DNA from: Chrysomallon squamiferum
Taxonomy: Eukaryota; Mollusca; Gastropoda; Neomphalida; Peltospiridae
Length of the DNA: 64,000 nt
Assembly: GCA_012295275.1 (NCBI GenBank)
Contig: CM022674.1
Span: forward strand, 7,673,436 to 7,737,435
Direction: 5' to 3'
Shown here: positions 21,721-57,604 of the stretch, in pieces
Layout of the letters: every line of letters begins with the position of its first letter
How positions within the stretch are numbered: the first letter of the stretch is position 1
The notes under the pieces: generated by a model
Database searches by the model: none
Told to the model about the DNA's origin: nothing
Seen by the model: the letters and a program-made list of their open reading frames with translations, nothing else
Program-made: the position numbers and the translations under genes

Positions 21721-22339
21721 AACTCTGAGGCAAGAAGAATACTACGTCACGTAAAAGCTGTTTTAAGCTTAAACGAAAATAAATAATTAGCTAGAATGAA
21801 TTATAACGTTACTTGCATCGAATCAACACAGGATCATAGACGTGATTGGAGATTTTATTTCGGAAATCGATTTTGTTCTAATTAGTAGAAGAATATTACA
21901 ACCAGAAATCCTCTACACGAATATACTATATATATATATATATATCACCTTCATATATATTATAAAATAGTACTTTCATCTTCAGAAGTATTATATGTAG
22001 AACTTTTATCTTTAAATATGTCACATAGTATCTTCCTCTTCACATATACCATATCTAATGTTTAAATCTTTAAATATATTACATAATTAAATACATCATA
22101 TATAGTACCTTCATCTTTAAATATCTCATATACAGTACCTTCGCCTTAAATATACCATATCTTGTGTTTAAATCTTTAAATATATCATATCTATTGTCTA
22201 TATCTTTAAATATATCATAAGATGTGTCTATGTCCTCAAATACATCACATGTAATATAAAAACTCCACATTTATCTTTTAATATGACATACGAAGTGCGT
22301 ACATCATTCATATATATATATATATATATATTCGCACAT

Positions 22340-29173: not shown

Positions 29174-31780
29174 CTAGTTTTGATGATACTCTATTAAGTA
29201 TTCTGCATAGCACTGGGCATTGTCAAAAATTACAAATATCTTAGGTTGGTATGTGTTATCGACGACACAGTCATAGAGTTCATCTGGCTTTGACTCGTCA
29301 ACTGGTGGTGGTTTTTTCATTCCTCGTTCACCTTTCGTATATTTTCCAACAAGTACTCTCACATTGAACATAAACCTAGGAAAATATAATCATAGCCATT
29401 GCAGTTTTTTTTTATTTGTAAAAAAAACAACAACCCCAAAACCCAAAACAACAACAACAAGATGGTAGATAGATATATAGACAGAAATTCAGTAATTAGG
29501 GTAGGCTGAAAAGTAAATGGCTATGAAGGAGTAATGCTAGAACAGTGAAACTACTCAGAGAAACTGGGATACCTGACTGAAAAAACACCAGGTTGATCAC
29601 ACTATGAGAGAATTTGGACTGTTTTGAAACAAATCTGCAAATTTCATGGCTCACTTAGAGCCAGAGGCAAAGAAATAATCAATGCAATTATCATTCTCAC
29701 TTCCTCCAAAGAAGGCCAGGGTTGTTTCATTAGTGAGGAAGGTGATGGTGTGGTTTTTTTTTTGAAATACAAAAGTATAGTGTTTATAGACTATCTTCAA
29801 ACTGGCCAAACAGTAAATGGGAGTGTTCTTTGCTAACTTGTTGAGGCAGTTGTATGAGTCTATCAAGAACAAACGTACAGGAAAACTTTCAAGTCTGTGG
29901 TTACATGGCTAGTATGCACATTTGGCTTTGAACTGACTGATAATTTTCCAAACTCTCCTGATTTGGCAGTATCTGATTATCATCTAATTCCAAAACTGAA
30001 ACAAAAACATTTGGCTGGCAAACCATAATGGAACTGTAATGTTGAGTACTTATGTACTAAATACTGCAGCACTGCTGAAAGAAGTGTATGGTCTGTAAGC
30101 AGTCTGTGTTGAATAAAAACTATATATCATCATATTCCACAAGGGCATCGTGTTAGGCTATGAACTTTTCAACCTGTTCTGTTCTATAACGATTGCTTTT
30201 TTCAGTTTTCTTTTTTTGTTAAATTGATAAAACATTTCTATTCAAAGATGACCCTCATTTTTATTTCTACAAAACGAAAAACAAAATTTAAAATTTATCC
30301 GTTAGCTTCTTTTATCAATTCAACTTTTATAAATAATGCTTTGATGAAACTATGCCATTATTAATTATTTGAAAATAAATCAACATTCTAAATATGATAA
30401 AGTAAAATTTATTACAATTAACTTTTAAAAGTCTATTTGTAAATATAATATGATTACATGCAAACATAAATTTATTTATTTTGAGTTGGGTGTTTTTTCT
30501 TTGGTCATGTTGATTCTAATGAAACTTTAAAAATTTGTGTTACCTGTTTCCTTCTTCATTTGGTTCTGTGTAGCCATCAGATGTTTTGGATTCTGAAGCA
30601 AAGTAGGCACCATCACCATACAATGCTCGCTTTACCACTCTAAAGTCAATACCTTGATTTACAATGCGATCAACAATGTCTGCTTTGGTACCATGGAACA
30701 GTTGTTGCTCATTTGCACCATCTAGGCCATAATTTCGGTCCATGATTTGTTTTTTCCTGAAATTTGAATAATTTGTATAATTATTTATTATAATTCACAA
30801 ACAATTATTAGAAGTGTTACAACTGTCACAGTTAATTCTACATATGATCTCAACTATTGTTCAACATAACAAGAACTTCTCACTAAAATCCTTGTTACAA
30901 ATTTCTTAGGACATCAGTATGACATGGTTCATATGCAGCATGGAAATCCTGGAAGTATAATATGGAATTTCAAAATTAATTTGACAAATTCTGGTAAATT
31001 CTTTAAATTTTAGTTTTGTTACCGAATGTTCTAATTTTACTCATCCTGTGATTAAATTTTATTTTCCTCTCTAATGTTATGATAGTTAAGTTTTTATTTT
31101 AATCAGCTGCACTTTTTGATTCAACGATGCTATCAAAGCACATATCTCTGAACATGTGGTTTTCTTATTTCCCCACTTAAATTACAGACTAGTATGAATG
31201 ATGTGATGTGATAATGTGATACGGTGGATGCAGTCTGCTCATGAAGGTATATGACAGGGAGTGTAAAATGAATTTACTTTAGTATGATGATGAGATATAA
31301 CATTAGATGTGCTAAATAGAAAGCTAAATTTCCTCCAACTGCATTTAATGTGTCAAATCAGACAAAGACATTTTTACAACAAAATCTGCTGTCAGTTTTA
31401 GGAAAACATCACTGATCTGAAGTCACAGATTTTCTTTTATTAAAAGCTAAATCATTAATTACATTTTTTTTCTCAAATCTTAAAATATGTCATATTCAAA
31501 CACTTATATAAAATGTAAGAAAATTAGGTTCAGAATACTGAATACATACAAAGCAAAAGGTTCCCATCTGTCAAGATTCTGAATTCTGTGTATTGCTATG
31601 ACAGATTTTGTAGGGAGCGTCCTCTTGAAATCATTAGAAACTTTCTGATATTCTTCAGATGTCAAGGGGTCTTTATAACTCAGAGAGATTTTCTGGACCT
31701 TGACACCTTGTTGCATGGACTGCCAGTACGAGGGTGAATCAATGGCTGTTTTTGATTTAGTTCTAACATTTTGAGCAGCT
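29174..31780 (-). CDS. Fusion gene exons 17-19: PARP-type ADP-ribosyltransferase catalytic domain
   Basis: Exon 17 (31550-31780) encodes the start of a PARP10/14-like catalytic domain: EEYQKVSNDF, then IHRIQNLDRWEPF. Exon 18 (30544-30756) carries the NAD-binding histidine in LFHGTKADIVDRIVNQGIDF and the tyrosine in GDGAYFASESKTSDGY. Exon 19 (29174-29375) carries VLVGKYTKGERGMKKPPP, then QPKIFVIFDNAQCYAEYLI, and the stop. The triad is His (about 858), Tyr (about 888), Ile (about 954). Poly-ADP-ribosylating PARPs have Glu at the third place; H-Y-I is typical of mono-ADP-ribosyltransferases, so mono activity is inferred. There is no macrodomain, WWE or SAM domain between the ankyrins and this domain, unlike PARP14 or tankyrase. 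An AATAAA on the minus strand lies about 120 bases past the stop (near 29056). Confidence 0.88.
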
Positions 31781-34700
31781 CTGAAAGTAGAAGTCATTTT
31801 AGAAATATTACTTAGTTATAAACTTTTAACAATTCTGTATCTGAACATGAGTTTTAACTCATAAATTTAAATAACTCAAGTGCAGTCATCAATATAACTA
31901 AGATAATGTTTTAATATTCAGCATAGAGCAGTCTAAAGGAGGAAGTGACTGCATTTCATGTGGCTAGCTAAAGTGTTTAGTATAGAATATTGCAACTGCA
32001 TTTATTTACTGTGTTAAAAAAAAACAACTTGGAAAAGAGAAATTCATAATTCTGCTTATAAAGAAATCCTAGCATTTACCTCATCAGTACCCTGGCTAAT
32101 TCTTTGTTTTGTATCAGGTCTATGGTTGTATTGCCATCTTTGTTTTTTATTGTGAGATTTGCTCCTTGATCAGCCAGCATGTAAAGAATATCAATAGATG
32201 TATCATCTTTTTCTGTTATCTCATTCCCATCCTGGATAAAAGTGTCCTGAAATGAACAACACAACATCAGACAACAACATATAAATTTATTATTGTTTTA
32301 ATGATGTTACTGTTTCAATGTTATCATAGGTGCTACAAATACATGGTCTATTAAAATTCTTTATACATCCAAGTAATTATTTTATTATCATCATTCAAAA
32401 ATTTTGCGATAGTAAAAGTAACTAATAATATTACAAGACATTTATAATATTTACACTCACTAACTTAAGCTGATACTGTAGTTTTATGACGTTAGTAGAA
32501 ACTTTAACACAAGCAGATCCATCTCTACATGATGACATCACAAATTTTAAATAATGCATAATATACTTCAACATAAAACTTTTATCAAATTAATATTTTT
32601 CTTTCCTAAATAACTTACTAGCAATTTTAAGGAAGGTTTTTTAAGAACCAAATGTGATGGTGTATTTCCATTGATATCCTGAGTATTTACATCTGCATCT
32701 ATCAAAACATAAGAGCAAAATTATAGTACATTTTCACACCCCCTACCCCAGACACATACTAACACAGACTATGACACAGATGTGGACACTTACATATACA
32801 CATACAGATGCAAACAGACCCATCCACTGACATATTGACACACAGACACATGAACTAAACAAACACACACACTGAAAAATATCCTAAGAAATAAGCAATA
32901 GGTAAGCAGAAAAAATAATTTTAACATAATCTCACTTGTGAAAAGAAGAACGTCAACAATAGGCAAAGATTTCCTGATCATAGCCAGGTGAAGAGGTGTC
33001 TGGTGACTGTTATCCTTAACATTTACATCAGCTTTTCCCTAAAATACAATGTTAAATCCTTATGAGAAGCAGCATCAAAAGTTAAATATAGGCAGTGATA
33101 GGTCTAGAATAAGATAAAGATTTAACTTTCTGAGAAAATAAAAATGTTATATGTTTCCTAATGGAGATATGAATAATTAATGAAAAATAAATCCATCTTG
33201 ATGTTCCTACTGGAGATATGCATGAATTAAGTAATGAAAATAAATCCATCTTGATGTTCTTACTAGATATAAATAATGTAATGAAAATAAATCCATCTTG
33301 ATGTTCTTACTAGATATAAATAATGTAATGAAAATAAATCCATCTTGATGTTCTTACTAGATATAAATAATGTAATGAAAATAAATCCATCTTGATGTTC
33401 CTACTGGATATAAAAATAGTATAATAGAAGACCAATCATTCATTGTGCTCCTACTAGATATAAATAATGTAATAGCAATTCATCACTTATCTCTTAATGA
33501 AAATGAATACCTTACTAAGAAGACAGCTGACAAGAGACCTGTATCCATTGATAACTGCAATGTGCAGTGCAGTGTATCCTCCTTTCTTTGTCTTTAGGTT
33601 GACAACTGATGGCTGATTTTTAAATATCAGTTCAGCTAACCTGAAATTAAAAGAAAAATATTTTTTATCACTTACTTTATATGTGCACAAACATTTTCAA
33701 ATAATTATCAACAATATAAGGAAAAACCAAGTTTTTTTTTTTTTTTCACTATCCACACTTTCAGAAATCGATAGAGAGCATTAATTTGAAAATAATGAGA
33801 TTATAAAAAGTGTTATTTACTAGATATGAAACAATTGTTAACAATATAGTCTAGCACTGTTTGAATGTATTGACAATAAGTAGTCATTTGAGTCTACAAA
33901 TCAGTGAGTGAGTGAATGATATCCCAGGTCGTAAAACAATTTAGCTATTGTGTCAGACAGAGGTATAAAAATGATTTATATATAAAATTAAATGGTAAAA
34001 CTGTATAAAAATATACTGTCTCATGTGGTGCTTAAAATAATTACCCTTTATGTTAACATGTCTTTATTGGAAAAATAAAAAAATAAACATCTTTGTATCA
34101 CTATGCCAATTAAAGGATGTTCCAGCTTCAGGTGTTGTAAACTTGGAGGCACAAAAAAAATGTGTCAGTTAAATAAGATATTGGGATGAAGCCTTTTTTC
34201 ATTAGTTCCAGGGCTTTAAAGTCTGCCCAAACTTCAAGAGTAATAAACATACTGAATCAAGCAATCTCATGGAAATGTCAATGTCTGACTGAAAAAACAC
34301 TGCACATCACAGAATTCCCATCCAGGTGATTCATCTGAATTGATAGAAATTCAGTCACAGTATCTTCCTCAAATGTCTACTAAAAGTTGCTGATATATAG
34401 ATGCATCTGAACAATGTTTTTTTTTTTTTTTTTTTTCAAATGCCCCAAATCTAGCACAGTCTTTGGTGGTTAAAATAAATAATATAATATGTCAGAGAAA
34501 TCAGTTCTGGCAACAGATTAAATACTGCATGATAAAAAATCCAAAAATAGGTATGGCACTTGGCCTCACATCAAATATATATTTATTATCAGAAACTGCA
34601 TTTCAAGTAGGATGTTTTGGTAATGATTTTATCTTCATACTATATAGCAGAAACAGTCAGTCTGCAAACATTTGGATGAGGATGCCTTTTTTTTAAAATC

Positions 34701-34788
34701 AGTTCCAGGGCTTTAAAACTATCTACAGGTACAAGCTCTCTCCAATACAAAGTCTGAACACTCCAGAAACAAAGTCTAAGATCTTGGC

Positions 34789-34819
<31 letters not shown>

Positions 34820-37712
34820 GTAACAGTTATGGCATTTATTCAATGAATCCATAATCCAATTTAGACCTTACAAAAGATCAACAAAGTAGGAGCATATATT
34901 ACTGCCTGTAACTTTTCAGGGTCTTTAAGATATTTTTAACATATTTTTGATGGAGTACCAAGGACAACCTTTCCACCACAGGATTTGGATTTTTATCCAG
35001 AAATAGTTGTGGATTTAAATGTAGATCTCTTTTATGGCAGATATACATACAATTTCTCTGAGTCTTTGAAAACTAAAACCATTATCTGATGCCCATTGCT
35101 GAAGTTTATTCATGCAAAGCTGCAGCTGACACTGGATGATATTAATTTGGATGATCTCTTGCAAATCAGAAAGAACAATCAATACCAAGTTTTAAACCCT
35201 GAGTGATGCTGTTAATTTTCACTGAAAATATAGTTTTTGATTATCCTGAAGTACACCCATCTCTTGCAAATTTGAAAATGTAGATGTCATCCAAGATTTG
35301 TAAAAATCTTTTTTAAAAAGTTATCTATAACAATAGGAGGGTGACCTCTTAGAATGAAGCTATGGAAGTCCTTCATAATACCATTCTTCCTCATTATATC
35401 ATAAGCTTTCTCCAAATCAAAACACACTGAAACTAGGTGTTGATTGTGTATGAATATTTCCCTACAAAATATTTCAAATCCAACAAGTTGATCAATCGAG
35501 TTACATCTGGTCATGAACCCATGCTGCATTTAAGTAATAAAGAAACCAGACAAATCTGCAACTGATAATTCATTTCATTGTTTTACAGATGCAGTTTGTC
35601 AAGGAAACAGGGTAATAATTAGCAGGACTTGATGGATTCTTAACAGCCTTTGGAGCAGGAATGACTATAACTGTCCTCCAATCAGAAGGAAAGTCACCAG
35701 AAATCCAGATTTCATTAAAATATTTAGAAGAGCTGGGTAAACATGTAAGTAATTAGTAGTATGGACACTACCAGAAGGGTTGGGACTAATTTTCATGGAG
35801 AAATCAAGAAAAAGAGACAAATTACAAAGGGTCTGATCTATGAAAGTGACTGTACCATTTACAGAGTGAAAATATGTATGGCTGTTATCATTAAAAAGAA
35901 TCAAGTCTTTTTAGAGAATTAAATCTTCCAATTATTTACCTCTGTTTTTCACCTTCTTCATATTCCTACAAGGTGTGATGATGCCTGAAATCTCCCATTA
36001 GAATAAAAAGGGACAGGAGTTGGCCTACAAGATCTTGAAGGTCCTTAAGATTAAAACTGAAATGTTTCGGAGGAGGTAAATAAACTGAACACATAGTTTT
36101 ATGACTGCAGCCAATAAGTTTAGTATTTTATGCAACTTTACTCTGGGAAATATTTTCATTAACAAGAAAGAAAACTTTCTTGGAAACTCTGTTTTTGATT
36201 TCCTTGAATTTGTGACTAATAATATTAGTGTCTTTGGGGGAAGTTTTCTGAAAACATATTTAACAACTAATTCATCAAAAGTGGGTCAAATCCAGGGAGC
36301 CTGATGAGCCTCTTGAAAGATTCTTAGAATCCTGAGAGATCTGTACTGATTTAGAATAAACTGTCTTTACTTTAGCATTCCATTTCTTTGTTTTCTGAAT
36401 GTCAGAAATCTTTTTAAATTTATCCTCATCATTTGACCATGTTACGTTAGTCTAATAGCAGCAGCATATGACAAGTCCTACTAATTATGAAGATTAATCA
36501 ACATTTTTCTAGCCTCAGGGAATTACAGATAAGTAGTACCATCTTTGTTCCTAGTAAAATTAAACAAATCAATAGCTGTTAGCTGCATGAACTCTGGACC
36601 AAAGTGAAGAATTGTCAGTGGCAATGTACTTAGTTGCAGACATCAATCATGACTCAACCACCAGGATCCCATCATCCACTTCACATGTCACATCTCACAA
36701 CAAACAAGGTGCCTCATTCGAGGAGGTGGTGCAGTTACTGGTCATTTTAAGAATGTTCTCGTTTTCAATTTTATTTCTAAGAAATCATTGTACAACTTTA
36801 CATTTATGTATTTTCAGGTAGTGGTTACATCATACAAAATATAAACCTAGGATTACATGAAAGACAATGATATAATAAAAATAAAAGCAAAGAGTGTTCA
36901 CATACTCAAAATGTTCTTCAGGTACAGCCAGTATGTGATAACCAGACTATAATGGGTTTGTTTCAGGAACAATTAATATTCTAATTAGCTAAGTTGTTTA
37001 AAATTTGTTTCATGATGATACTTTATAGCGATCATCTTAATGATATGTGACTACAAAGTTTAAAATAATAATAATAATAATAATAATAAAATCTTTAAAA
37101 AATTCTGATAAAGGCAACTGACTGACTTGACAGCTGAAAGCCATACATACTTTTCTTTATTATTCATTACAGCCACATGAAAAGCAGACATCCCCTCACT
37201 GTTGAAAATGTCACATCTAATTTTCTTCACCTTCATCAACATCTCACAAATTGGGTAGTTATCCATAGCATCATGGAGTGGAGTGTCTCCATCATTGTCC
37301 TTTTGTCAGAACAAACTCAATGTTTACATAATATAAGAGATCATGTTTTCAAAAATAATTATATAAAATTATATGATTAAGAAATAATTTTATAAATCAC
37401 AATAAATTGACAATTAATAGATGCAATACAAAGTTAAAACTTTATTATAAAGCTACAAGAATAAATGTATCAATGCAAAATTTGCAAACAGGAATAATAA
37501 TTAGAAAAGGGCATTTTTTGAATTAGGTGGGTTTTTGGGTTGTTTTTTTCTATAACATAATTAGAATCAAGGCTCAAAATTAAATAAATATATATTTAAA
37601 TGTATTTTGTGAACTTCAGTTGAAAATACATGAATAAGGTACTGAGGAAAAATATACTGTGCCATTGTATTAAAAATTAATCTCTCTCTCTCTCTATATG
37701 TGTGTGTGTGCC

Positions 37713-37746
<34 letters not shown>

Positions 37747-38355
37747 TACACATGCATATACACCTTTGAATAAATAAAAAGAAAATATGTGACATGTTAA
37801 TAAAAAATGAATACATATATAACCTGTGTGTTAACATCACATCCCTTGTCAGTGAGGATTTTCACAATTTCTTTATTGTTTGCAGTCACTGCTTGGTGAC
37901 ATGGTGTCAGTCCTTTTTTATTCTTTTTGTTCATGTCAGCACCTTTATCAATTAGGATTTTCACAATTTCATCTTTGCCTCTGAAAAACATAATAATCAT
38001 GAAATGACACAATGTTTATCTGTGTTACATAAAAGTATAATTACAGCATTAAAGAGAATAGCGATGCAATAATTTAAAGATACACATTTAACTTACAGTG
38101 AAACCACATGATGAAGTGATATGTTATACAAATGTTATATATTTAACATACTGTTAAACAGCATGATGAAATGATCTGGTGTATAAAAATCTAGATATAA
38201 ATTGTAAAATAGTATGATGAAGTGATCTTATATAAAGAAAGAGATTTAACTTACTGTGAAATGTTAAAAAAAATACCAATCTAACTATGAAGCAGCCAGT
38301 TGAAATATGTTGTATAAAGATACAGATACATCATAAAAAAACAGCATGATGATAC

Positions 38356-38396
<41 letters not shown>

Positions 38397-41300
38397 CATC
38401 TTAATAAAACAGCATGATGAAATGAAATGATATTAAATAAAGATATAGATTTAATTTACTATGAAATAGCATGATTAAGTGATCACATATAAAGAAAGAA
38501 ATTTAACTTAGTGTGAAATAATGTTAAATAAATACTCATCTTACTATATAGCAGCTAAATGAAATGATATGTTGTATAAAGATTTAACTTCCTCTGAAGT
38601 GATGTTATGTAAAGTTTAACTTACTGAGAAACAGCAAAATGAAGAGCAGTGTCTCCTTCTTCGTCAACCAGATTTGGATCAGCTTTATACGATAAGAGAA
38701 TTTTCACAACTTCACTGCTACCTGTGTAGCAAGCCAGTTGTAATGGACTGTTTCCATCAACAGTCTCATTCACCTGCATATATGTATACACCTTTTCTTA
38801 ATAAAACCTTTCATTATGGAATAAAAATATTTTATTTCTGATCATCATTTCTCTTATTATATATATTTAAAATTTTGTGCATTACAAAATGCCCCAAATA
38901 TGTAGTCTGAAAACAAATAAAAAGAAAAATAAAGAAAAAGAAAAATCCCTCAGTAATCTTAGTTTGATGGTTAATGTCAGTTACTCTGAACTGGTTTAAC
39001 TGTTGTGTTTAAAACTGTACATAGTTATAGAGTCAACACACTGATTAAAACCTCTTCAATATACATGTCACAAAATTTGATTTAAACCTAATTTGAGATA
39101 ACTTTGAATTTATCATGTGCAATCTAGCAGAGACTGAAATATCTTTAACTGATGAAATATGAATAATAAAAAAATAAAAAAAATTGTAATTTGTTACCAA
39201 GGTGGAACTGACCAGCTCATATACTTTATATTTCATATGAAAATATCTTTGAATGTGGTACAAAAATACACATTTTTGCAATAGTATTATGGAAAAAATG
39301 CTATGACATTAGAACTATGATGTTGCTTTTAGGATTATGAAAATAATCTGATCAAAAAAGGATTATTGGAAACAATATAATCAAACTAGGACAATGGAGA
39401 AAAATCCTGTCAAACTAGGAATTAGTTTACGATGTTAGCAAACAAGGATTTGGAAAAAGATGTTATCAAACAATAACTATGGAAAAGATCAATGGTAGGG
39501 GGAAAAAATAGAATTATGGAAAAGATCTTACCAAACCAGGATTATTGGAAAGAATTTCTTTGACAGTTTTGATGTCTTCCTGTGCTGCTGCTTCTATAAG
39601 TCGTTCAGATAAACTGATTTTATCTCCCTTCTGTATCAGTGACAAAATCATTTCACTAATGTTACTCCCTATGTCTGAAAATGCTAAAAAAAAAATATCA
39701 TTCGTATGAAAACTTTTATTTTTTATTATTTTATTTTTTTAAATTTATCTTTCCAATTCATTTTCAAAAAATGAATAGATGTTAGGTATAGTACATTTAT
39801 TTATTTACAGCAATATACTTTTATTTTGAATAAACTTATTTTAAAATAAATAAATTTTAATTTGTTTGTGTTGTTTATCATCTAATTTATCATTCCAATT
39901 GATTGTTAAAAAAGGATGAATTTAGAGTATTGATTATTTATTTATTAGCAGCAATTTGTTGTTGTTTTTTTGTTGTTGTTGTTCATTCTGTTTGTTGTTT
40001 ATCTGTTTTATTGACAACATAGAAATGAACATTATCTTAATATATAACTTTGCTATAAGTTACAGAATAATGATCAGTACACTGAGATAGGAATTCGTCT
40101 AATTCTTTGTACATCAAAACCTACTAAGAACTTCATCTCAAGAAGTACCAGTACATCATAATTATAGAAAGTTGGTGTTTGCAGACTGATAAAAACTTTA
40201 TTAGATGTTTTTTGTTAACAGTCTATATATGACATCCCATGATATTTTCAGCAAAACTGTTTGACATCAGATGAAATTGACTGTAATTTTAATTCATATC
40301 TCTTGAACAGCTCTGTTTTAAAGTGAATAATACAATTGAATAGTTACTTACCACCAGGAATTATTTCCATTGGTGTCTCTGATACCTGGTGTTTTGATCT
40401 ATTCTCATCAGCTGACTCTACATACTGACAACACACAGGACTAAACATCCACTGCTGTTCTCCTACTTTGACTGTCAGGTCACCATCATCATCAACAGCT
40501 ACAATGATTCCTAACTCACCAAGAGCCTGGCATCAAATCCACATTAATAATTATGTTAAGTAAGAGAAAGTAACTCATACAAACTAGCTAGGTTATACAT
40601 GATCTATTTGACGTCATTTTGTGATTGTGTTACATGATGTTTGAATTTTCAGAAACGAAATATAAACAATTTAAAAATAATTTTAATTCCATTCACTGAG
40701 AAAATTAGAAACTTTACATCGCAGAAAGAAATAAAATACTGGGATAAAAAATGAAATCAATTATACTAGTCATAATAATGAACTAATTGACTAATCAAAT
40801 TTCAAATAATATCAAAATGAACTTAGTGCTGCTCACTGGAGTTTACAAAACAATCTGAAATGAAATCAAGATAAAAATAAATTTATACTTTTTCCATTTC
40901 ATCATTCCAGCCACCATGTCCTTCCTGCAGCTCCTGAACAGCATTGATGTTTTCCAGAATTTGAACAGTCTCACCAACAGAAAATGAGTGAATCTGAAAA
41001 AAGTGAAAACAGTAGATGTGAAACACATAAATATTTCTTAATTCATAGTAAAGAAAAAAAAAGAAAACATAAATTATATTAAAAATATATATAGAATATT
41101 TAGATACATATAGATATTTCTTTACTTTAAAATACATAGAAAATAAATGACCCAAATAAATACTTCTGAAAAATAAACAGAACAGCATAAAATGGAATTT
41201 CGTTAAAAAATAAATAAAACAACATAATAAATATTACAAATATATCATTTTAAATTAAAAATAAAGAAAAGACCAATTAAAAATGAAGAAAAAACATTAA

Positions 41301-41570
41301 AGCAATACTTTTCAAAATTAAATTACATAAAGACTATAGAAATATTTCTTTAATTATATCTAAAGAACCCAAGATAAAACAAATGTACAATTTAAATTAA
41401 AATTAAATAAATAACAGATTACCTTAGTTAATACTGATCTATAGAAATACCATGTTTGTGCATCTTCATACTGAACTTTTGCTATACTTGAGTTTTCTAT
41501 TTCAATGATTGTTCCTAACTGTGACAAATACTTGAAAAAAAAAAAATAATAATAATTATAAAAACTAAAA

Positions 41571-41630
<60 letters not shown>

Positions 41631-43565
41631 TAAGGACAATAGTGTTGCTCTGATATTAAGATATCCTCTAGTCACTACTGACCGCAGAAGAAAGATATTT
41701 GCATAATTTTATTTTATAAACACAAACACACACACACACACACACACCACATTTATTTTCATTTGGTAATTATTGTGAATAAATAAACATTTATGTTATA
41801 ATTAATTAAAGTAAATAAATACAAACATCAGATATCTTTTCATGCCACATTCCTTTAGTTTCTGAAAAAATTTTCTTCACCACTTTGGCATCTATATCCA
41901 CTTGTACCTTGTCTCCAGGTTTCAGCTGATATTCTGACTGGCTTCTCACATCTAAACCAATAAACTACATTGGTTAATATTTTATCTTCATCATTATCGT
42001 CCTCATCATAATCTCATCATGTGGATCATCATTATTACTATTATTATTTAATATTATTATCTGTGATAATTTAATCAAAGTAAAAAAAAAAGATATTAAA
42101 ATGAAAGTCAAAAACTATTATGAGCTTCTGTGGTACATCTATAGTGCTTCTTTTAAAATTAACTAAAATTATTAAAACTTAGTATGAGTAACAGGTTTAT
42201 ACAGATTAAAAAACATTGTTTTTAATTAGTTTGTTAATTTATCGTTTTGATATTATTTGTTAGTATAGTTGTTATGTATTTGCTGGTAGTTTAAGAAACA
42301 CACCTAACACAGGAAGATGCTGTGGAAAGTAATACATGCTTTGTGTTTCAGCAATCAGAATGAGATCCATACAACCTTCTCCTCCACATCTGTAGTTATT
42401 CATTGAACCTTTTTGCCACTTAACTTCAACACCACCTCTATAACTATTTCTTCCCCACTTTACTAAACGTATGACTTCACCAGCTTCTTTACTGCCACCT
42501 AAATTTTAAGACAAAATAAAAGGAAAATTTCTTTGAAAAGATGCAAAATTCAGATTTCATAATTTTCAAAACAGAAAAAGATATTTGTTAAAGGAATTTA
42601 AATGAAATGAGTATAATTAATTACCTTTATGATTACAAAATAGTGTGATGCTTATTGTCACAATTATTGTAGGGGAAAGTTAATCTCACTTCAACTGTTA
42701 TTTTTGTTGATATCTCACCATTCAGTCTATGTCATATCATATCACCTGTCATACTACATAATAACAGGTGACACAAAAATTAGTTGTCCATTTTGATCCA
42801 TGATTATATTACTGAGTGAGCTCAATATTTATGAGGATTTTAATATCTCAGGTGAGTGGCAGCACACAGAATCTAAACCTTGTATGAATATTTTCTTTCT
42901 ACAATTTCAATGAAATGTTTTCCACTTTTATTTGTAATATTTGTCAGATTATTTCTTTTTGTATTATATATTAATGAAAATATAAAATTTCAGTAGGTAT
43001 CACATTAATAAATATAGAGGAACATATCATTAATTTCATCAGGTAGTTCCTCAAATAAAACATCAAATAATTGATAAATAATAACACACAAAGATTATAA
43101 AAATCAGTCTTATGATTAGTATAAAATTACTAAACTTCTTGGTGTTAATTCTTCTAATTGTAAAATTTTAAAAGAAAAAACTCCATTTTTGACCATAAAT
43201 GTATTTTAACATAGTAAGAAGTACACTACTGACCTCATTATGAACTCTTTACTGCGAAAATACTTACCATCCTGATTACTCCACTTCCAGTGTAACCCTC
43301 TCTTAACACTAGCACCTGGTAAAATTCCATGCACAGTTTCTGGTTTTAGCAAATTTCTTGAATCTATAGGCACTCTAAAAATTATATTAACAGAAATGAA
43401 TATGTCCTGTTTCAAACGTGACTATTATATATATTTTAATAAAAATATTGGAAGTAAATAATATTATTAAGCAATAATACATACCTTTTTGAAATCGTTT
43501 GAGAAGATAAATTAGTATTAAATTCAGCAAAAATAAATGTGCAAAACTCTTAATAGTAAAAGGTA

Positions 43566-43612
<47 letters not shown>

Positions 43613-46156
43613 TTTTTTTTTTTTTTTTTTTTTTTTTAATGTAATCTCAGGTTTGCTAACTTACAGTGTAGATTGCTGTGTTTGATGGAGAAGGAAAGGA
43701 TGACTAAGATCATGTTTTCCACTCATGTAACACAGAGTGCAAAGGTCGAAGTCACTGCAGGTAGCACAATTCCATCGCATACCTTCTATTGGATCCTTTT
43801 TGCAAATATCACATGCAATACCGTCATGAACACAACCTAAAAGTTACATAATACTGTTTTTGTGAGTTAATGATGATGATGATGAGGAAATAATCATTAC
43901 TTTCTAAATATGGTAAAATGTTATATATCAATAACAATGGAAGACATACAAAAACTAGTTACACTAAAAAGGTCTGAAAAATGGACGCAAAATAATTTAA
44001 TTTGGAAGTTTAAAAATTTCCGAGAGCTCACAGAAAATTCAGATCGAAATTAATATGGCTGCGTCGAACGCCGATTAGTGTTTACAAGCGTTTAAATACG
44101 TATGCCTTCATAATACAATCAATTTTACATAATAATTTGGGGAAATATGTCATTTAATCAATGCCTCGCATACATAGATGTCTATTATTGAGTAGAAATT
44201 TTCTGCAAAGGTCGAAACCTTTTGTTGTTGTTGTTGTTTTTTTTGGTAACTTTGACGTGATACCATCTCATACTCGTTTCGTTTACGACGTCGCCAGCCA
44301 AAATTAAAAAAAAAAAAATAATGATAAAATAATAATAAAATAATATAAAATAAATAATTTTCACAGACCCTGGCGCGTGAATATGAAGATAACTATTCTC
44401 ATTAGGTACCATAATGTGGACACGTTACTTTGCTAAAACTCCATACCAGACACCTCTCAGTACGAAGTTGTAAAACGATACTTCAAACCATTATATTCTT
44501 TTTTATATATATTTATTTCCTTTTTCAATGCATTAGAGGTCGTATTTACCTGTAAAAAGCAAACTGATCACGTTTTATCTGAATGATTGCCTTGATACAT
44601 TCAGTATAAGGCTTGAATCAGTTTTAAAACAGAACATTTTTTTTTTAAAAATTGAAGGTCCGTCAACCGGCCTTATAAAATGTTTAGTCTTTTTCGTTAA
44701 AACAAAAAGCATTCAACTTCTAAAACATGTACTATTATGTATGCAAACAATAAGTTTCCTATTTTTATTTTTAAAAAATCATTGGTCCATGCTACTTAGA
44801 TTATCATTATGGTTATTTATGACTTCAAATTAATAATTTATTAGCGAGAAAACAAAATTACTCCAAGATTGTTTACCTCTGTAGAAAATAAAATGACATT
44901 TTTGCTTTGGTTTTCTTTAATATTCTTGATTCACTTTTTTAGAGATAATTTGATTTTGGTTCAGAACGGACGCTGGTGACAGACGACATCTATCTGTAGA
45001 AGGGACATAACTGATGTTGTATTTCCGCATGATATTCATGCTTTAGAGATTTATAAATAAATAAATAAATAAAATAAAATAATCATTATCTTGTGATATA
45101 CATATGAATTTATTACTACTACTATTTTATTTTTATTTTCAAAACATTCGAAAGATTCAAAGAAAAACCTGTAATTCTGTTTATTTTAGAAACGATTTCG
45201 TACTTAATTTTGAGATTAACACGAACGACATCTACAGAAGGGACGTAACTAATACTTTATTTTTCGTAGTATTTTAGAGGTTGAGAATTTATTATTTGTC
45301 GGAGCCCTCGTCGAATAACTAACTACATCTTGTTATTTAAAGATTTCTGAGAATAAAATTTAGCTTGTTCACTGAACTTGACGCAAACAAAACAGTGGTG
45401 TTCTATTAATAGTGTGATGTAAGGGGAATAACTGTAATAAAGCGAATGATTTGTACATGTCAGAGTATGAGAAAAGAGGGCTAATAAATCCATCGAAGTC
45501 TTACATGCGTTCGCGACATCTATGCTGCTGCATAATTGTGTAGCTACATAAAAGTGCTCCAGAACAACAAGAATATTTCCTTAAACCCTTGTATTAATTC
45601 TTTCAGAATAAAACCATTTCGAGTTTCAGTACAGTGCACAACGTACTGACAATAAACAACTGACGTATTATGATAACTAATTTATGAAAATTTTTCTTAG
45701 AAGAAAGAAATAATGAACGTATCGATATAGATATCATTTGTTAATATTTTTCGAATCTTACCTATTTAAAGAGAGTTTGTTGGGTTTTCGTTTATTTATT
45801 TATTTAGTTAGTGGGTTAGTTTTCATGATCTAAATCACGGAGTAATAATTACTCTGCTAGCTCAACAGCAACAACAACAACAACGAAAAACTAATATAAT
45901 ATTAGGTGTAAAAAATCTGATAGATTTTTTTTCTTTTTCTAAATAGTTTACCTGTCGGTGCGTTATCATATATTTTGAGTTCGTGTCGTCCATCATATCC
46001 AGCACGATAATGACCTTCGTGACCTATATCCCATATGACCTTCACCTTGCCATTAGCGACATCCTCTTTCACAACAGTGCCAAGACAACCTTCGCCACCA
46101 TCTTTCCCTTCACCAGCCCAGTCTGGACCTCGAACTACACGTGTTCCTACCGACAT
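29174..46156 (-). CDS. MIB-like / ankyrin / PARP fusion protein, complete 19-exon model
   Basis: Exons in order: 45952-46156, 43665-43836, 43268-43374, 42304-42498, 41827-41951, 41423-41530, 40889-40993, 40352-40526, 39532-39683, 38625-38773, 37824-37980, 37151-37299, 33511-33640, 32936-33038, 32619-32698, 32080-32246, 31550-31780, 30544-30756, 29174-29375. Every junction has GT/AG and phases match throughout, giving 2925 nt (974 residues plus TAG). Order by residue: Mib-Herc2 (1-68), ZZ finger (69-126), Mib-Herc2 (about 130-226), two MIB repeats (about 230-400), ankyrin repeats (about 415-760), PARP catalytic domain (about 785-974). MIB proteins ubiquitinate Notch ligands through C-terminal RINGs. 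None is seen here, and an ADP-ribosyltransferase occupies that place. Inferred role: an intracellular mono-ADP-ribosyltransferase with MIB-like target binding. No signal peptide or membrane segment is seen. The start is the first ATG after a plausible acceptor, five residues before the conserved ARVVRGPDW motif. Two adjacent genes are possible but the phase continuity argues against it. Confidence 0.82.
29499..30178 (+). mobile_element. Degenerate mariner-type transposon
   Basis: It lies in the intron between the last two PARP exons. The ends carry CTGAAAAGT and, inverted, TTGAAAAGT next to GTAGG/ACAGG. The interior encodes broken mariner transposase segments: FIDYLQTGQTVNG at about 29790 and FPNSPDLAVSDYHLIPKL at about 29945-30000, the region around the final catalytic Asp. 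Frameshifts and stops mean it is inactive. Confidence 0.75.
30773..30866. repeat. Approx. 95-base direct repeat, second copy
   Basis: Second member of the pair with 28154-28246; it lies just upstream of PARP exon 18. Confidence 0.75.
32080..39683 (-). CDS. Fusion gene exons 9-16: ankyrin repeat region
   Basis: Exon 9 (39532-39683) opens the region with LSERLIEAAAQEDIKTVKEI. Exon 10 (38625-38773) carries DGNSPLQLACYTG and GDTALHFAVSQ. Exon 11 (37824-37980) carries VKILIDKGADMN, GLTPCHQAVTANN and VKILTDKGCDVN. Exon 12 (37151-37299) carries DGDTPLHDAM and MSAFHVAVMNN. Exon 13 (33511-33640) carries GYTALHIAVINGY. Exon 14 (32936-33038) carries QTPLHLAMIRK. Exon 15 (32619-32698) carries NADVNTQDINGNTPSHLVL. 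Exon 16 (32080-32246) carries LADQGANLTIKNKDGNT. About eight repeats can be counted; the ones in exons 15-16 are degenerate. The 3.5 kb intron between exons 12 and 13 holds a LINE remnant. Ankyrins in MIB and in tankyrases are protein-binding platforms, so a substrate-recruiting role is likely. Confidence 0.82.
33165..33475. repeat. Approx. 47-base minisatellite in intron 13
   Basis: About five to six units containing AATGAAAATAAATCCATCTT and GATGTTCTTACTAGATATAA, between fusion exons 13 and 14. Confidence 0.85.
34150..36600 (-). mobile_element. Degenerate Jockey-type LINE (endonuclease and reverse transcriptase)
   Basis: In the 3.5 kb intron between exons 12 and 13. Minus-strand fragments in order: endonuclease VCSVYLPPPKHFSFNLKDLQ and LMGDFRHHH (about 36090-35950), endonuclease end FIDQTLCNLSLFLDFSM (about 35830), reverse transcriptase WISGDFPSDWRTVIVIPAPK (about 35680), LVSVCFDLEKAYD (about 35400), then C-terminal SFVRSKLDYG (about 34870) and LRLCFWSVQT (about 34770). 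Many stops and frameshifts; inactive. The outer limits are approximate. Confidence 0.8.
38060..38640. repeat. Degenerate minisatellite derived from the exon 10 splice donor
   Basis: About eleven decayed units of roughly 35-65 bases, several containing AACTTACTGTGAAA and CAGCATGATGAAATG. Read on the minus strand they resemble the last bases of exon 10 followed by GTAAGTT. The same array occupies 1-300 in copy A. Confidence 0.55.
40352..41951 (-). CDS. Fusion gene exons 5-8: two MIB-type (SH3_15) repeats
   Basis: Exon 5 (41827-41951) contains LKPGDKVQVDIDAKVVKKIF. Exon 6 (41423-41530) contains LGTIIEIENSSIAKVQYED followed by WYFYRSVLTK. Exon 7 (40889-40993) contains FSVGETVQILENINAVQELQ and GHGGWNDEMEK. 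Exon 8 (40352-40526) contains LGELGIIVAVDDDGDLTVKV and WMFSPVCC. The pattern (GD-V-VDID, a GHGGW-type turn, LG-G-I-D, then WxxxPxxL) is that of the paired repeats between the Mib-Herc2 block and the ankyrins in mind bomb proteins. Exon 8 ends with a polar linker. Exons 6 and 7 are whole-codon exons in phase 0. Confidence 0.82.
42304..46156 (-). CDS. Fusion gene exons 1-4: Mib-Herc2, ZZ finger, Mib-Herc2
   Basis: Exon 1 (45952-46156) encodes a Mib-Herc2 domain with TRVVRGPDW, a DGGEG turn and a GHYRAGYDGRHELKIYD end, very like the N-terminus of MIB1. Exon 2 (43665-43836) is a ZZ zinc finger: HDGIACDVC, then RWNCATCSDFDLCTLCY, then a paired-His tail HDLSH. All expected Cys/His ligands are present. 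Exons 3 and 4 (43268-43374, 42304-42498) form the second Mib-Herc2 domain, with WKWSNQDGG, VIRLVKWG, VEVKWQ and a YRCGGEGCMDLIL end. In MIB proteins this block binds the cytoplasmic tail of Notch ligands; whether this protein does is unknown. Exon 1 ends in phase 1, exon 2 in phase 2, exons 3 and 4 in phase 1. Confidence 0.88.
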
Positions 46157-46204
46157 CACTCTAAGTCTCTTTCAAAAAGAATTAAATGGAATAATTTTGC
46201 AGTG

Positions 46205-46343
46205 AAAATATTTATCTGTATGTCTGCCTATCTATCTATCTGTCTATTTATCTATATATATATATCTGTCTATCTATCTGTCTGTATATCTATCTGTACT
46301 ATTATCCATCTGACTGTCTGCCTGCAGGTCTGTCTATATGTCC

Positions 46344-46388
<45 letters not shown>

Positions 46389-46525
46389 GCTATCTAGCTA
46401 TATGTCTGTCAATCTATACGTCTGTCTGTCTGTCTATATTTCTATTTATTTGTCTGTCTATATTTCTATTTATGTATTGTCTATATTTCTATTTATTTGT
46501 CTGTCTCTCTGTCTATCTACACAGA
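46205..46525. repeat. TCTA/TCTG tetranucleotide array upstream of exon 1
   Basis: Imperfect (TCTA)n and (TCTG)n starting about 50 bases upstream of the MIB-like exon 1. Shorter equivalents are at 8145-8345 (copy A) and 53820-54130 (copy C). Confidence 0.92.
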
Positions 46526-47623
46526 GTTGTACGTTTCTCTAGCAGACTCTGAGATGAGCGGTCATCTACGATGTACGGACAGTTTTCCAGGGCCCATTTC
46601 TTTTCACTGGATATGTCCCTTAGATCAGCGGTCACCTACAGAACGCGATTTTGGAAAGCATTTTAAAATTATAATTCAACTGCTAAATGTATTTGGATTT
46701 TTTCTCCAATATTAATAATTTTATTGTTGTACGGCAGTTTTATACTATATTTTCTGCGCTGCACAATGCATTCTGGAATTGTCACTTCTGTCGAATACAA
46801 GAATCTGCGAAATGCAGTCGCTTGGCTGTTAAACCGCGCGAATTCACCCCATTTGGTACACAACTTTGATGATGTTTAGCGGTCTTTGGGGTCGATAAAA
46901 TGGTGCGGCTGGCACGATTTGGAGCTCTGTCTCGATTTCAAATTCAATATTTTGCTAAAACATAAATATAATTTATGCTTATTATGACTGTTATGAACTG
47001 CAAAAGTACGATTTATTTACATTTGTCAGTGAACTCGATATGTTTGTTTTAGAGTTTAGCAGAAAGCTCTGGCGCTTGATGTAATTCTCGGCCACGGTTT
47101 ATGTTTGTTATGGGTTCTGGTGTGGTGGATGTGAACAACGATAGTAAATAGGTTATTATGGAAAATAATAAAATTGCCTGTTATTTTTGTCCCTCTGATG
47201 AGGAGACACCTGCGTTGTAGGGACACTTTTGCTTGGCTCCACAGGTGTCCTTACAAGACAGGTTCCATTCTGTGTGTGTGTGTGGCTCGCTCAGCTGAAT
47301 GCAATTAATAAACATATTTTTACTACTACTGATAACTGATAAAAATGATAATATTTATAAAAGGGTTATTATTCATCATTACACATTTCTTAATTTGCTA
47401 AGCAAGTCATCCTTATTATAAATATTTCCAATACCTTTGCAGATTTATATATAAACGTTTACACATATACCGTAATTAATTTTGAAAACAAAACCAAAGC
47501 TAAAAACGAAGACAAAAACGAAAAAAAAAAAAATATATATATATTTAAATAAATACAAAATATAACCGTCTAAAGGTTTTAATAATTTTTGCAAGTATTA
47601 TGATGATGATGATGATAATAACG

Positions 47624-47676
<53 letters not shown>

Positions 47677-49273
47677 CGTTATTATTATTCTGTTTATATG
47701 AGTCTGGACATTAAAAAATCATTTTTAGATTTCCTTTGAATAGACATCTTACGAAATACGCGGTTTAACGTTTCCTGAGTAGGGATCATGTATCATATAT
47801 CGAGACAATAGTTGTGACAAGTTTTTACGTGTTTGTCTAAATTACATCCTGGTATGTAAAATGTTGTGGATTAAATGTATATTATTGTTATGTTTCATTT
47901 CACCGCAAAACTCAAACTAAATATATCTTCTTTAAAGTATAAACAATTTTTTTATATTACTAGGTTTACCGTATCTGGTTAAAACTGTCAAACTTACCGG
48001 GTAAACGGTGTAGTTGTTATCTTGTTCTGCATTCTGGTCGTTCGACGTTGCCTCAGTCTTCGTAGCAATTATCAACACAGAAATCTGCATGACAAAGGCA
48101 TGTCGGGAACGTTTCAAATATAGACGACCCGTCAGACTACAGTGATAATTAGTTTATAGAGCATTTTTATCTGCTACAGTAGTTACCATTTCGCGCTTCG
48201 TAGCGGTCAAGTTCGATTTCCTATTCACAAGATATTACTCTTACTATTATTATTATTGTTGTCGTTGTTGTTATGCAATGGACTGCTAGAAATTTAAATT
48301 AAACAAATGTTAAATTTAAATTAAATAAATGTATGAAATACAACCGTACATTTTCTCCTTTTGCTTCTTGTTATCAAAAAAACAGCTCAAGTCACACAGC
48401 GTACGCACCGAAACACCACGGTCCATTTCTTTCTCAACAGCTCTACTTTACCTTGGATCGACATGGACTGGTGTTTACGTTTTGACACCATGAGAGATAG
48501 TTTCACTTGTCTTAGAAGCCATAGCTAGGTGAAGTTGAAGCGAAATAAGCTAAGAATCTCACAGAATTGCGGTATCACAGAAGTGCAGTGTAAATAATGT
48601 AAATAAGCACGCCCTACACATAACGCCATCTGTGGCTGCCCAGTAAACAATTCTCTATGTAATTTTGTCCGGACTAAAGGAGGTGCCGGGAATTCGGTGG
48701 TGTACCTGCAGTATAAATAGGTGAAAGACTTATCCTCGTGGAGCTGGTTACGATTCGATATGCTGGACACTCTCTTGTGTCCTGCCTAATACTAATTTTA
48801 GTAATAATCCCTTTCTGTTTCCTTCCCAAAAACTATTTTTCTACGGCAGACACGCCCGCTGACCTGTGAGAAAGCATGCCTGTCGTACACGTGCTTCGCA
48901 ATAGCACGCTCTGTTTAGCACGTTAAATTTTTCCCCAGGTCCCAGATCCTCTTGGGGAATCCCCGAAGAGGTCACATGTACTGAAAGTGTACGGATCATA
49001 GTGAAGCCGCAATAGCGCTATTCAACTCGTTCGTTGTAATGTATCACACTTCTATGCTACATATCAGTATTAACAAAATTATTATTAACTGGCGCGTGGT
49101 CCAAAACTTCAATACGTTTTTGAGTTTTATTTTAATACCATTTGTACTTATTAAATTATCACAGATAATACTATTAAATAATAATAGAAATAATGATGAT
49201 GCACATGTTGAGATTATGATGAGGAGGATAATGATGCAGATAAATTATAAACTAATGTATTTTGTGGGTTTAG

Positions 49274-49398
49274 ATGTGAGAAGCCAGTCAGAATATCAGC
49301 TGAAACCTGGAGACAAGGTACGAGTGGATATAGATGCCAAAATAGTGAAGAAAATTTTGTCAGAAACTAAAGGAATGTGGCATGAAAAGATATCTGAT
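49274..49398 (+). pseudogene. Inverted extra copy of MIB-like exon 5 (copy B)
   Basis: Same as the inverted exon at 10934-11058, with the same three replacements relative to the in-place exon and the same splice sites. The replacements are shared by all inverted copies, so the inversion is older than the A versus B/C duplication. Confidence 0.65.
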
Positions 49399-49564
49399 GT
49401 TTATTTACTTTAATTAATTATAATATAAACATTTTTATAATCACAATAATAACCAAATAAAAATAAATGTGTGCGTGTTTATAAAATAAAATTATGCAAG
49501 TACCTCTCTTCTGCAGTCAGTAGTGACTGAAGGATATCTTAATATCAGAGCAACACTATTGTCA

Positions 49565-49598
<34 letters not shown>

Positions 49599-49992
49599 CA
49601 TATTTATTTATATATATTTTATTTTTTATATGGTGTCTGAATAATAGGAAGCTTCTATCAACCAATTAATAATGCTGAGACATAGACAGTCGGTGACAGC
49701 CCGATTTTTATATCTGAAGCAGTCATTGGCTGTAATAGATTCCTTTCCTAGTGAGAGCCAGACGTTTACAGGACTGAGAAAAATGTTCCATGTTTCTCCT
49801 AAACTTGGCAGAACATATGATTAATTCTAACAAGCTCAGTTTGAATTAGTGTCTTGAAATGAGAGACTGGTGAATGATAAAATAGAAAGAAAATTAGAAA
49901 TAAATAAATAGACGAAACGATAAATAAGCTTGAAATGAACCAATTAATAAAAAAGAAGGAACAAAATAATGATAATAATAATAATGATAATA

Positions 49993-50026
<34 letters not shown>

Positions 50027-50273
50027 TTAATACAAATAATAATAATAATTATTATTATTATTATTATTATTATAAAAATAAATAAATAAAAATAATAATA
50101 ATGGTGTGTCTGTCTGTATCTAAGTATGTATGTATGTATGTATGTATGTAAATTGAAGCTACCAGTGACAATGAAGCAAATGCTTTTCAGTACATAGTTT
50201 TAATTCATTTTTAAAATTGCACAATTGATATATTTACAGGATACAGACAGAAATAATTATCTTATCTTATTAC

Positions 50274-50473: not shown

Positions 50474-50884
50474 GGCAGCACACAGAATCTAAACCTTGTA
50501 TGAATATTTTCTTTCTACAATTTCAATGAAATGTTTTTCCACTTTTATTTGTAATATTTGTCAGATTATTTCTTTTTGTATTATATATTAATGAAAATAT
50601 AAAATTTCAGTAGGTATCACATTAATAAATATAGAGGAACATATCATTAATTTCATCAGGTAGTTCCTCAAATAAAACATCAAATAATTGATAAATAATA
50701 ACACACAAAGATTATAAAAATCAGTCTTATGATTAGTATAAAATTACTAAACTTCTTGGTGTTAATTCTTCTAATTGTAAAATTTTAAAAGAAAAAACTC
50801 CATTTTTGACCATAAATGTATTTTAACATAGTAAGAAGTACACTACTGACCTCATTATGAACTCTTTACTGCGAAAATACTTAC

Positions 50885-53765: not shown

Positions 53766-53952
53766 CACTCTAAGTCTCTTTCAAAAAGAATTAAATGGAA
53801 TAATTTTGCAGTGAAAATATTTATCTGTATGTCTGCCTATCTATCTATCTGTCTATTTATCTATATATATATATCTGTCTATCTATCTGTCTGTATATCT
53901 ATCTGTACTATTATCCATCTGACTGTCTGCCTGCAGGTCTGTCTATATGTCC

Positions 53953-53997
<45 letters not shown>

Positions 53998-55236: not shown

Positions 55237-55292
<56 letters not shown>

Positions 55293-56886: not shown

Positions 56887-57011
56887 ATGTGAGAAGCCAG
56901 TCAGAATATCAGCTGAAACCTGGAGACAAGGTACGAGTGGATATAGATGCCAAAATAGTGAAGAAAATTTTGTCAGAAACTAAAGGAATGTGGCATGAAA
57001 AGATATCTGAT
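56887..57011 (+). pseudogene. Inverted extra copy of MIB-like exon 5 (copy C)
   Basis: Third instance of the inverted exon, identical in coding sequence to that in copy B. It may be the same locus assembled twice. Confidence 0.6.
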
Positions 57012-57178
57012 GTTTATTTACTTTAATTAATTATAATATAAAAACATTTTATAATCACAATAATAACCAAATAAAAATAAATGTGTGCGTGTTTATAAAA
57101 TAAAATTATGCAAGTACCTCTCTTCTGCAGTCAGTAGTGACTGAAGGATATCTTAATATCAGAGCAACACTATTGTCA

Positions 57179-57215
<37 letters not shown>

Positions 57216-57604
57216 CATATTTATTTATATATATTTTATTTTTTATATGGTGTCTGAATAATAGGAAGCTTCTATCAACCAATTAATAATGCTGAGACAT
57301 AGACAGTCGGTGACAGCCCGATTTTTATATCTGAAGCAGTCATTGGCTGTAATAGATTCCTTTCCCTAGTGAGAGCCAGACGTTTACAGGACTGAGAAAA
57401 ATGTTCCATGTTTCTCCTAAACTTGGCAGAACATATGATTAATTCTAACAAGCTCAGTTTGAATTAGTGTCTTGAAATGAGAGACTGGTGAATGATAAAA
57501 TAGAAAGAAAATTAGAAATAAATAAATAGACGAAACGATAAATAAGCTTGAAATGAACCAATTAATAAAAAAGAAGGAACAAAATAATGATAATAATAAT
57601 AATG

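Follow-up and report, generated by a model that had tools for sequence, protein, structure and literature searches.

Among the described proteins closest to the gene considered here, MIB2, a Mind bomb (MIB) protein, is linked to TBK1-type signaling. MIB2 has also been implicated in BCL10-dependent NF-kB activation, in work cited by PMC4650145, and the MZM and REP portions of Mib1 are its ligand-binding domains, as set out in excerpts of PMC11887331. Among ADP-ribosyltransferases, the relevant sections of PMC2964712 define tankyrases by a SAM domain between the ankyrin repeats and the PARP domain, and describe Clade 3E PARPs (including PARP12 and PARP7) in which isoleucine, or valine in two members, replaces the glutamate of the catalytic motif; PARPs with this replacement are regarded as likely mono-transferases or inactive. 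Oysters have an expanded set of proteins with PARP14-like domains, according to excerpts of PMC8195603. Here we describe a gene, copy A, in a 64,000-nucleotide stretch of the Chrysomallon squamiferum genome (the whole stretch analyzed, hereafter the window; C10:7673436-7737435 in a 404.6 Mb assembly of 22 contigs) that joins a MIB target-binding half to a PARP catalytic domain. Its architecture, lack of a RING, intact H-Y-I motif, single clade for each half, coexistence with a RING-bearing MIB2, fast change and change in copy number suggest that copy A encodes a MIB-guided mono-ADP-ribosyltransferase, with an immune role more likely than a core role in Notch signaling. We give this reading a probability of roughly 0.6.

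Gene model and domain architecture

Rebuilt from stop-to-stop frames and splice sites, copy A consists of 19 exons on the minus strand, running from 46156 to 29174, which join into 2.9 kb of coding sequence with no internal stop. Each of the 18 introns is GT..AG, phases are compatible throughout, and each of the 19 exons lies where the original prediction had placed it in its single frame. The predicted length of 974 residues can be reached by combining acceptors 39683 (exon 9) and 41530 (exon 6), but our preferred model gives 971. Acceptor 41518 for exon 6 gives a 967-residue version; we prefer 41530, which adds YLSQ, because these residues are also present in the homologue P0001. Homologues do not decide between acceptors 39674 and 39683 for exon 9 because the region is variable. 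The exons are listed below; each assignment rests on the splice model and Pfam unless other evidence is named.

45952..46156, minus: exon 1, start codon and first Mib-Herc2 domain (P0001 begins likewise)
43665..43836, minus: exon 2, ZZ zinc finger
43268..43374, minus: exon 3, start of second Mib-Herc2
42304..42498, minus: exon 4, second Mib-Herc2
41827..41951, minus: exon 5, MIB repeat region (splice model; weak donor, gtttgt)
41423..41530, minus: exon 6, MIB repeat region (acceptor chosen by homologue P0001)
40889..40993, minus: exon 7, MIB SH3 repeat
40352..40526, minus: exon 8, MIB SH3 repeat and linker
39532..39674, minus: exon 9, linker and first ankyrin helices (splice model; alternative acceptor 39683)
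38625..38773, minus: exon 10, ankyrin repeats
37824..37980, minus: exon 11, ankyrin repeats
37151..37299, minus: exon 12, ankyrin repeats
33511..33640, minus: exon 13, ankyrin repeats
32936..33038, minus: exon 14, ankyrin repeats
32619..32698, minus: exon 15, ankyrin repeats
32080..32246, minus: exon 16, last ankyrin repeat
31550..31780, minus: exon 17, linker and start of PARP catalytic domain (also catalytic-domain comparison)
30544..30756, minus: exon 18, PARP core with catalytic H851 and Y881 in the 967-residue version (splice model, motif alignment)
29174..29375, minus: exon 19, end of PARP with third motif position I962 in the 967-residue version, and stop codon (splice model, motif alignment)

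The protein therefore reads, in order, Mib-Herc2, ZZ, Mib-Herc2, MIB repeats, ankyrins and a C-terminal PARP catalytic domain. Pfam places MIB_HERC2 (two stretches, E 5.6e-34), ZZ, SH3_15 (the Mind bomb SH3), several Ank families and PARP (E 1e-23, residues 794-965 of the 967-residue version) above their curated cut-offs; SH3_15 is found in one stretch, and the other MIB repeat has no Pfam match. Over its full length, the MIB half can be aligned with the MZM-REP domains of MIB1 (E 1.8e-80). This domain search agrees with the earlier proposal of a MIB-type protein carrying PARP in place of RINGs: Pfam finds no RING in the copy A protein, and a scan of the window in all six frames, which does detect the RING at the MIB2 locus of this genome, finds no RING motif that might be spliced to the MIB part. 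A simpler RING pattern serving as a control matches 28 of 28 RING-type MIB proteins.

Structure prediction for the homologue P0002 from Patella caerulea (25-sequence alignment, mean pLDDT 79, pTM 0.53) points the same way for individual domains. Its best match by E-value is MIB1 MZM-REP (4xi7), although the whole-length superposition is poor (TMt 0.56, rmsd 19); the MIB1 ankyrin domain (8v0e) is matched with TMt 0.81 and rmsd 3.6, and PARP15 with TMt 0.90-0.95 among the PARP15 matches listed (best rmsd 1.5). Because pTM is low, the model does not predict how the domains are arranged. Within intron 12, at 35287-35529 on the minus strand, an RVT_1 match below cut-off (E 0.007) is perhaps a decayed retroelement.

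A conserved mollusc family

The same domain order, sought in other molluscs, occurs in gastropods and bivalves, and protein databases hold at least 31 different entries with these domains, a number that may include isoforms or alleles. A first search, covering about 5.8 billion proteins, recovered 15 entries with the full domain set; a second, with residues 1-400, in which MIB-PARP proteins made up 27 of the best 120 of 147 matches, raised the total to 31. Eight gastropod and 11 bivalve species are named, in addition to unnamed sources:

Gastropods: Gigantopelta, Patella (two species), Haliotis (four species), Nucella
Bivalves: Ylistrum, Ostrea, Mizuhopecten, Saccostrea, Potamilus, Mercenaria, Mactra, Pinctada, Argopecten, Mytilus, Mya

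MIB-PARP is a conserved mollusc family and not an oddity of one genome. No RING-like motif occurs beyond residue 400 in any of the 31 entries. Among the matches listed, no named non-mollusc species combines MIB_HERC2 with PARP, no row is named as a cephalopod, and the rows named as heterobranch gastropods are RING-bearing, as are the tree rows from a brachiopod, annelid, bryozoan, rotifer, arthropod, echinoderm and vertebrate.

The presence of the same domains in 31 database entries excludes a chance product of one gene model, and an annotation that runs a MIB gene into an unrelated PARP gene behind it is scarcely credible. One observation could be read in its favor: copy C, a second copy in the window, has MIB and ankyrin exons, and its exons 13-19 were not found in the ~29 kb past exon 12, DNA that includes some N. 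Against this stand homologues from 19 named species and unnamed sources, the recovery of one MIB-PARP clade for each half of the protein (below), and copies D and F of the same genome, which have 19 exons in the same order. Moreover, seven of the 31 entries (source lgn) are single contigs of 3320-4368 bases that hold the whole reading frame, which fills 68-90% of their length; the corresponding frame of the window gene stretches across 17 kb, and we therefore regard the contigs as almost certainly spliced transcripts. On the strength of the homologues, the cDNA-like contigs and the matching clades, we reject the two-gene artifact.

Many of these entries are filed as ordinary ubiquitin ligases. 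Sixteen of the 24 NCBI-named entries are called E3 ubiquitin-protein ligase (MIB2-like, mind-bomb-like or mib1-like), and six MIB-PARP entries bear the UniRef name 'Poly [ADP-ribose] polymerase'. Because so many entries are named as E3 ligases though no RING is found in them, mollusc studies that list 'MIB2', as a passage of PMC10491289 does for resistance to oyster mortality, may point to a different enzyme.

A PARP12-like catalytic domain

The catalytic domain of copy A scores 125 bits against PARP12, 122 against PARP15 and 114 against PARP14, compared with 32 for tankyrase 2 and 24 for PARP3, and its catalytic motif is H-Y-I. Across the family, His and Tyr are present in 31 of 31 entries, and the third position is Ile in 24, Val in six (one of them, P0149, within an aberrant C terminus) and a gap in one, the partial record P0001. 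By sequence the enzyme is PARP12-like. The tankyrase link in the original prediction does not hold, as the domain is of PARP12/14/15 type, its motif reads H-Y-I where tankyrases have H-Y-E, and no SAM domain is found by Pfam; with so weak a tankyrase 2 score, we reject a tankyrase relative. Pfam also reports no WWE, CCCH or macro domain ahead of the PARP domain of copy A; such domains are typical of animal Clade 3 members though not universal, and copy A is placed with Clade 3 by its catalytic domain and not by subclade.

The PARP domain might instead be an inactive fold that has been retained as a binding module, making the protein a scaffold or decoy. Clade 3 does include inactive members such as PARP9 (excerpts of PMC2964712), but PARP9 has lost the motif histidine as well, whereas in MIB-PARP both His and Tyr are invariant and the third position is Ile or Val as in Clade 3E. 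Moreover, distances between species are no larger in the PARP half than in the MIB half (median 0.51 versus 0.54). We consider an inactive fold quite unlikely.

Origin of the fusion

In a careful tree of the MIB half, based on 53 of 61 rows after eight long or redundant ones were dropped (P0015, P0170, P0214, P0149, P0008, P0012, P0146 and P0171), all 26 MIB-PARP rows group in a single clade (100/100), within which bivalves form a clade (100/98) and gastropods a weaker one (93/57). A quick tree of all 61 rows also recovers MIB-PARP as one clade (99). The midpoint-rooted tree of the PARP domain, built from 14 MIB-PARP sequences (13 of the 31 entries and the window model) and 13 others, again has one MIB-PARP clade (96/93), with gastropods at 97/93 and bivalves at 97/96. 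Pairwise distances among 30 rows (P0001 and P0149 omitted) correlate between the MIB and PARP halves (r 0.86) and between the ankyrin and PARP parts (r 0.93). Because the MIB half and the PARP half each form one MIB-PARP clade, we infer that a single fusion probably preceded the gastropod/bivalve split and was inherited as a unit.

The MIB part most likely descends from MIB2 rather than MIB1, a conclusion of which we are less sure than of the single fusion. Among the matches listed for residues 1-400, no RING-bearing row is named MIB1. The RING-bearing MIB2 orthologue of this genome lies at C10:6981955-6994070, ~0.7 Mb from the window, and in five of seven comparable species MIB-PARP and RING MIB2 share a chromosome (this genome) or lie on contigs of equal size (Gigantopelta, Patella vulgata, Mactra and Mercenaria, but not Haliotis cracherodii or Pinctada). 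This pattern fits an intrachromosomal duplication, with equal contig size as indirect evidence.

Rate of change and selection

Between species, the MIB half is 35.8-69.6% identical in MIB-PARP but 70.5-91.2% identical in RING MIB2, and it is the less identical of the two in all 15 species pairs drawn from six taxa (the Mytilus rows come from two species). Of 111 positions in the MIB half that human MIB1 and MIB2 have in common, the MIB-PARP family keeps 77 and has lost 16, in a count that omits P0170, P0214 and P0015; the losses include K19 and W20 of the first Mib-Herc2 (human MIB1 numbering), which most of the family lacks. Because identity is low and these 16 positions are lost, the targets of MIB-PARP may have moved away from Notch ligands.

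Alternatively, MIB-PARP could still bind the tails of Delta and Jagged, either ADP-ribosylating them or blocking MIB as a RING-less competitor. The end-to-end alignment with the ligand-binding MZM-REP domains and the 77 retained positions speak for such a role. The low identity of the MIB half is unlike that expected for a partner of conserved ligand tails, however, and the loss of K19 and W20 and the variation and decay of copies also argue against it. We regard a continuing Notch role as unlikely, if far from negligible.

Within the genome, the ratio of nonsynonymous to synonymous change (dN/dS) between copies A and D is 0.67 for MZM-REP, 0.58 for ankyrin and 0.70 for PARP, and between copies A and F it is 0.67, 0.11 and 0.57, respectively. 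Only exons of equal length were used (for MZM-REP, exons 1, 2, 3 and 7 with D and 1-5 and 7 with F); exon 11 was omitted with F, and exon 6 did not enter the region sums. Individual exons come close to 1 on few changes (exon 6, A/D, 1.03; exon 5, A/F, 1.00). All region values are below 1. Among the copies, near-identical and divergent exons follow one another in turn, a pattern suggestive of gene conversion. On these results, we dropped a 'variable sensor, constant effector' scheme that we had considered.

Copies and genomic context

Copies of the gene, apart from copy A, lie in the window and elsewhere on the same contig:

8086 to 301, minus: copy C, exons 1-10; 16 of 1472 exon bases differ from copy A
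53765 to 50885, minus: copy B, exons 1-3 only; identical to copy A in 484 of 484 exon bases
C10:7743130-7760920: copy D, 19 exons in order
C10:7777543-7794491: copy F, 19 exons in order
C10:10310169-10298843: G, pieces of a more divergent MIB-PARP

Exons 11 and 12 of copy C lie outside the window; copy E is a remnant, and a lone inverted exon 16 occurs near the window. Relative to A, the frame is shifted by indels in exons 5, 8 and 9 of D and in exons 9, 11 and possibly 6 of F. Frameshifts thus affect two of the three copies in the cluster that carry a PARP domain, leaving A as the sole complete open copy seen there.

Such decay raises the prospect that the gene is a relict under relaxed selection with no present function. 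Partial copies B, C and E, the frameshifts of D and F, and fast evolution are all compatible with this idea, but copy A is open across its coding sequence, and the architecture, with His and Tyr, persists in gastropods and bivalves. In addition, copies A and C differ across exons 1-10 by a proportion of 0.022 at synonymous sites (pS) and 0.0078 at nonsynonymous sites (pN), a weak argument given the few changes. We judge a functionless relict very unlikely.

Copies C and A, with their upstream regions, are carried by a segmental duplication (1-15752 versus 38318-61673) in blocks that are 87-99.7% identical, about two thirds of the length exceeding 97%; a false duplication of haplotypes in the assembly is a possible source. 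Both duplicates contain a 43-base minisatellite (12755-13275, 12.1 copies; 58697-59539, 19.8 copies), and the spacer between A and C includes a tandem array of a 37-base unit (19757-21724, 53.8 copies). Copy B belongs to a 7.4 kb direct repeat (42858-50273 versus 50474-57895, 99.2% identical) and, lying upstream of A, could supply an alternative promoter and first exons for it. The exon 5 region also occurs as inverted copies of 0.8 kb, ~90% identical, on the plus strand at 10520-11299, 48860-49627 and 56473-57244, each upstream of one exon 1 and on the opposite strand to it.

At least 60 PARP matches occur in the genome, four of them at MIB loci (A, D, F and G). A separate PARP expansion, with at least 25 matches in 2.2 Mb (C10:15.27-17.43 Mb), lies on the chromosome of MIB2 and MIB-PARP. 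On C8, at least 21 MIB_HERC2 matches cluster at 0.75-0.78, 7.75-7.78 and 8.55-8.64 Mb, perhaps a second expanded MIB-like family. None of the PARP matches counted here falls within ~1 Mb of these clusters, and one (L028) of the two C8 stretches read has a RING motif; that they are MIB-PARP genes is unsupported. A further MIB-like locus at C10:14.40-14.41 Mb (L025-L026) has Mib-Herc2, ZZ and ankyrin matches and is not counted as MIB-PARP because L025 contains a RING motif.

Discussion

We propose that an early mollusc gained a second copy of a Mind bomb gene, most likely MIB2, and that the RING-encoding C-terminal part of that copy was swapped for exons of a PARP12/14/15-type catalytic domain. 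In the resulting protein, the MZM, REP and ankyrin parts would select and hold a protein target, to which the C-terminal domain would add one ADP-ribose unit taken from NAD. That the protein is catalytically active, that it makes mono rather than poly transfers and that its MIB half still binds proteins are each inferred from sequence. Most speculatively, the enzyme could act in innate immunity, either in MIB2-linked NF-kB/TBK1-type signaling or in antiviral ADP-ribosylation as by the PARP12/14 group. Rapid change, changing copy number, decaying copies and a PARP12/14-type enzyme would all fit an immune role.

Several results weigh against parts of this account. With respect to origin, the quick tree does not resolve gastropods as a single clade, contrary to the simplest picture, and a long-branched RING protein of Pinctada imbricata (P0214) adjoins the MIB-PARP clade there (SH-aLRT 90), perhaps as a RING-type sister of the family and perhaps through long-branch attraction. 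Descent from MIB2 is judged against a single MIB1 row in the trees, and the careful tree places MIB-PARP beside sponge MIB2 (92/67) and not with that of molluscs; a constraint joining it to mollusc MIB2 is merely not rejected (p 0.49), and the tree itself lacks this grouping. With respect to function, the H-Y-I group may contain inactive members, and the 77 retained positions leave binding of Notch ligands possible. Positive or diversifying selection on the MIB half was not seen, dN/dS being below 1 in every region (0.11-0.70), and fast evolution with duplication fits immunity but also relaxed constraint. Finally, the frameshifts in D and F may mean that part of the family is decaying, unless they are assembly errors.

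A more specific version of the MIB-guided transferase model is that MIB targets acquired a second write-out: a MIB paralogue in which ubiquitin was exchanged for ADP-ribose before gastropods and bivalves split, and which later became an innate-immune enzyme. We hold this version tentatively, at a little under even odds. If it is correct, the same class of targets could receive either mark, and rapid divergence of the MIB half, together with copies being gained and lost, would have led to the innate-immune role.

More broadly, MIB-PARP unites two chemistries that are usually separate, the target choice of a ubiquitin ligase and the transfer of ADP-ribose. Its presence from limpets to oysters raises the question of what MIB targets gain from ADP-ribose, and the family provides a natural test of how much MIB specificity resides outside the RINGs. 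The original prediction knew of no described protein that joins MIB to an ADP-ribosyltransferase, and among the papers listed from the open-licence literature we likewise saw no published description, 'mind bomb' together with 'PARP catalytic domain' giving no paper.

MIB-PARP can be compared with several known systems. Like MIB2 and MIB1, it has two Mib-Herc2 domains around a ZZ finger, a MIB SH3 repeat and ankyrins, with MIB1 structures 4xi7 and 8v0e as the nearest folds; in contrast to these proteins, it bears a PARP catalytic domain and no RINGs, its MIB half changes faster, and it coexists with a RING-bearing MIB2. As in tankyrases (Clade 4 PARPs), ankyrin repeats precede the PARP domain, but MIB-PARP lacks the SAM domain, has Ile for the motif Glu, carries ankyrins nearest to those of MIB1 and matches the tankyrase catalytic domain weakly. 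With PARP12, PARP14 and PARP15 of Clade 3 it shares a catalytic domain of PARP10-15 type and an H-Y-I/V motif, whereas it has the target-binding part of MIB, and WWE, CCCH and macro domains are not found by Pfam. The oyster proteins that combine DED-TRADD-N, macro and ART domains, as described in excerpts of PMC8195603, are likewise lineage-specific mollusc fusions with PARP14-like domains; they differ in their front domains, and 'mind bomb' is absent from the text of that paper.

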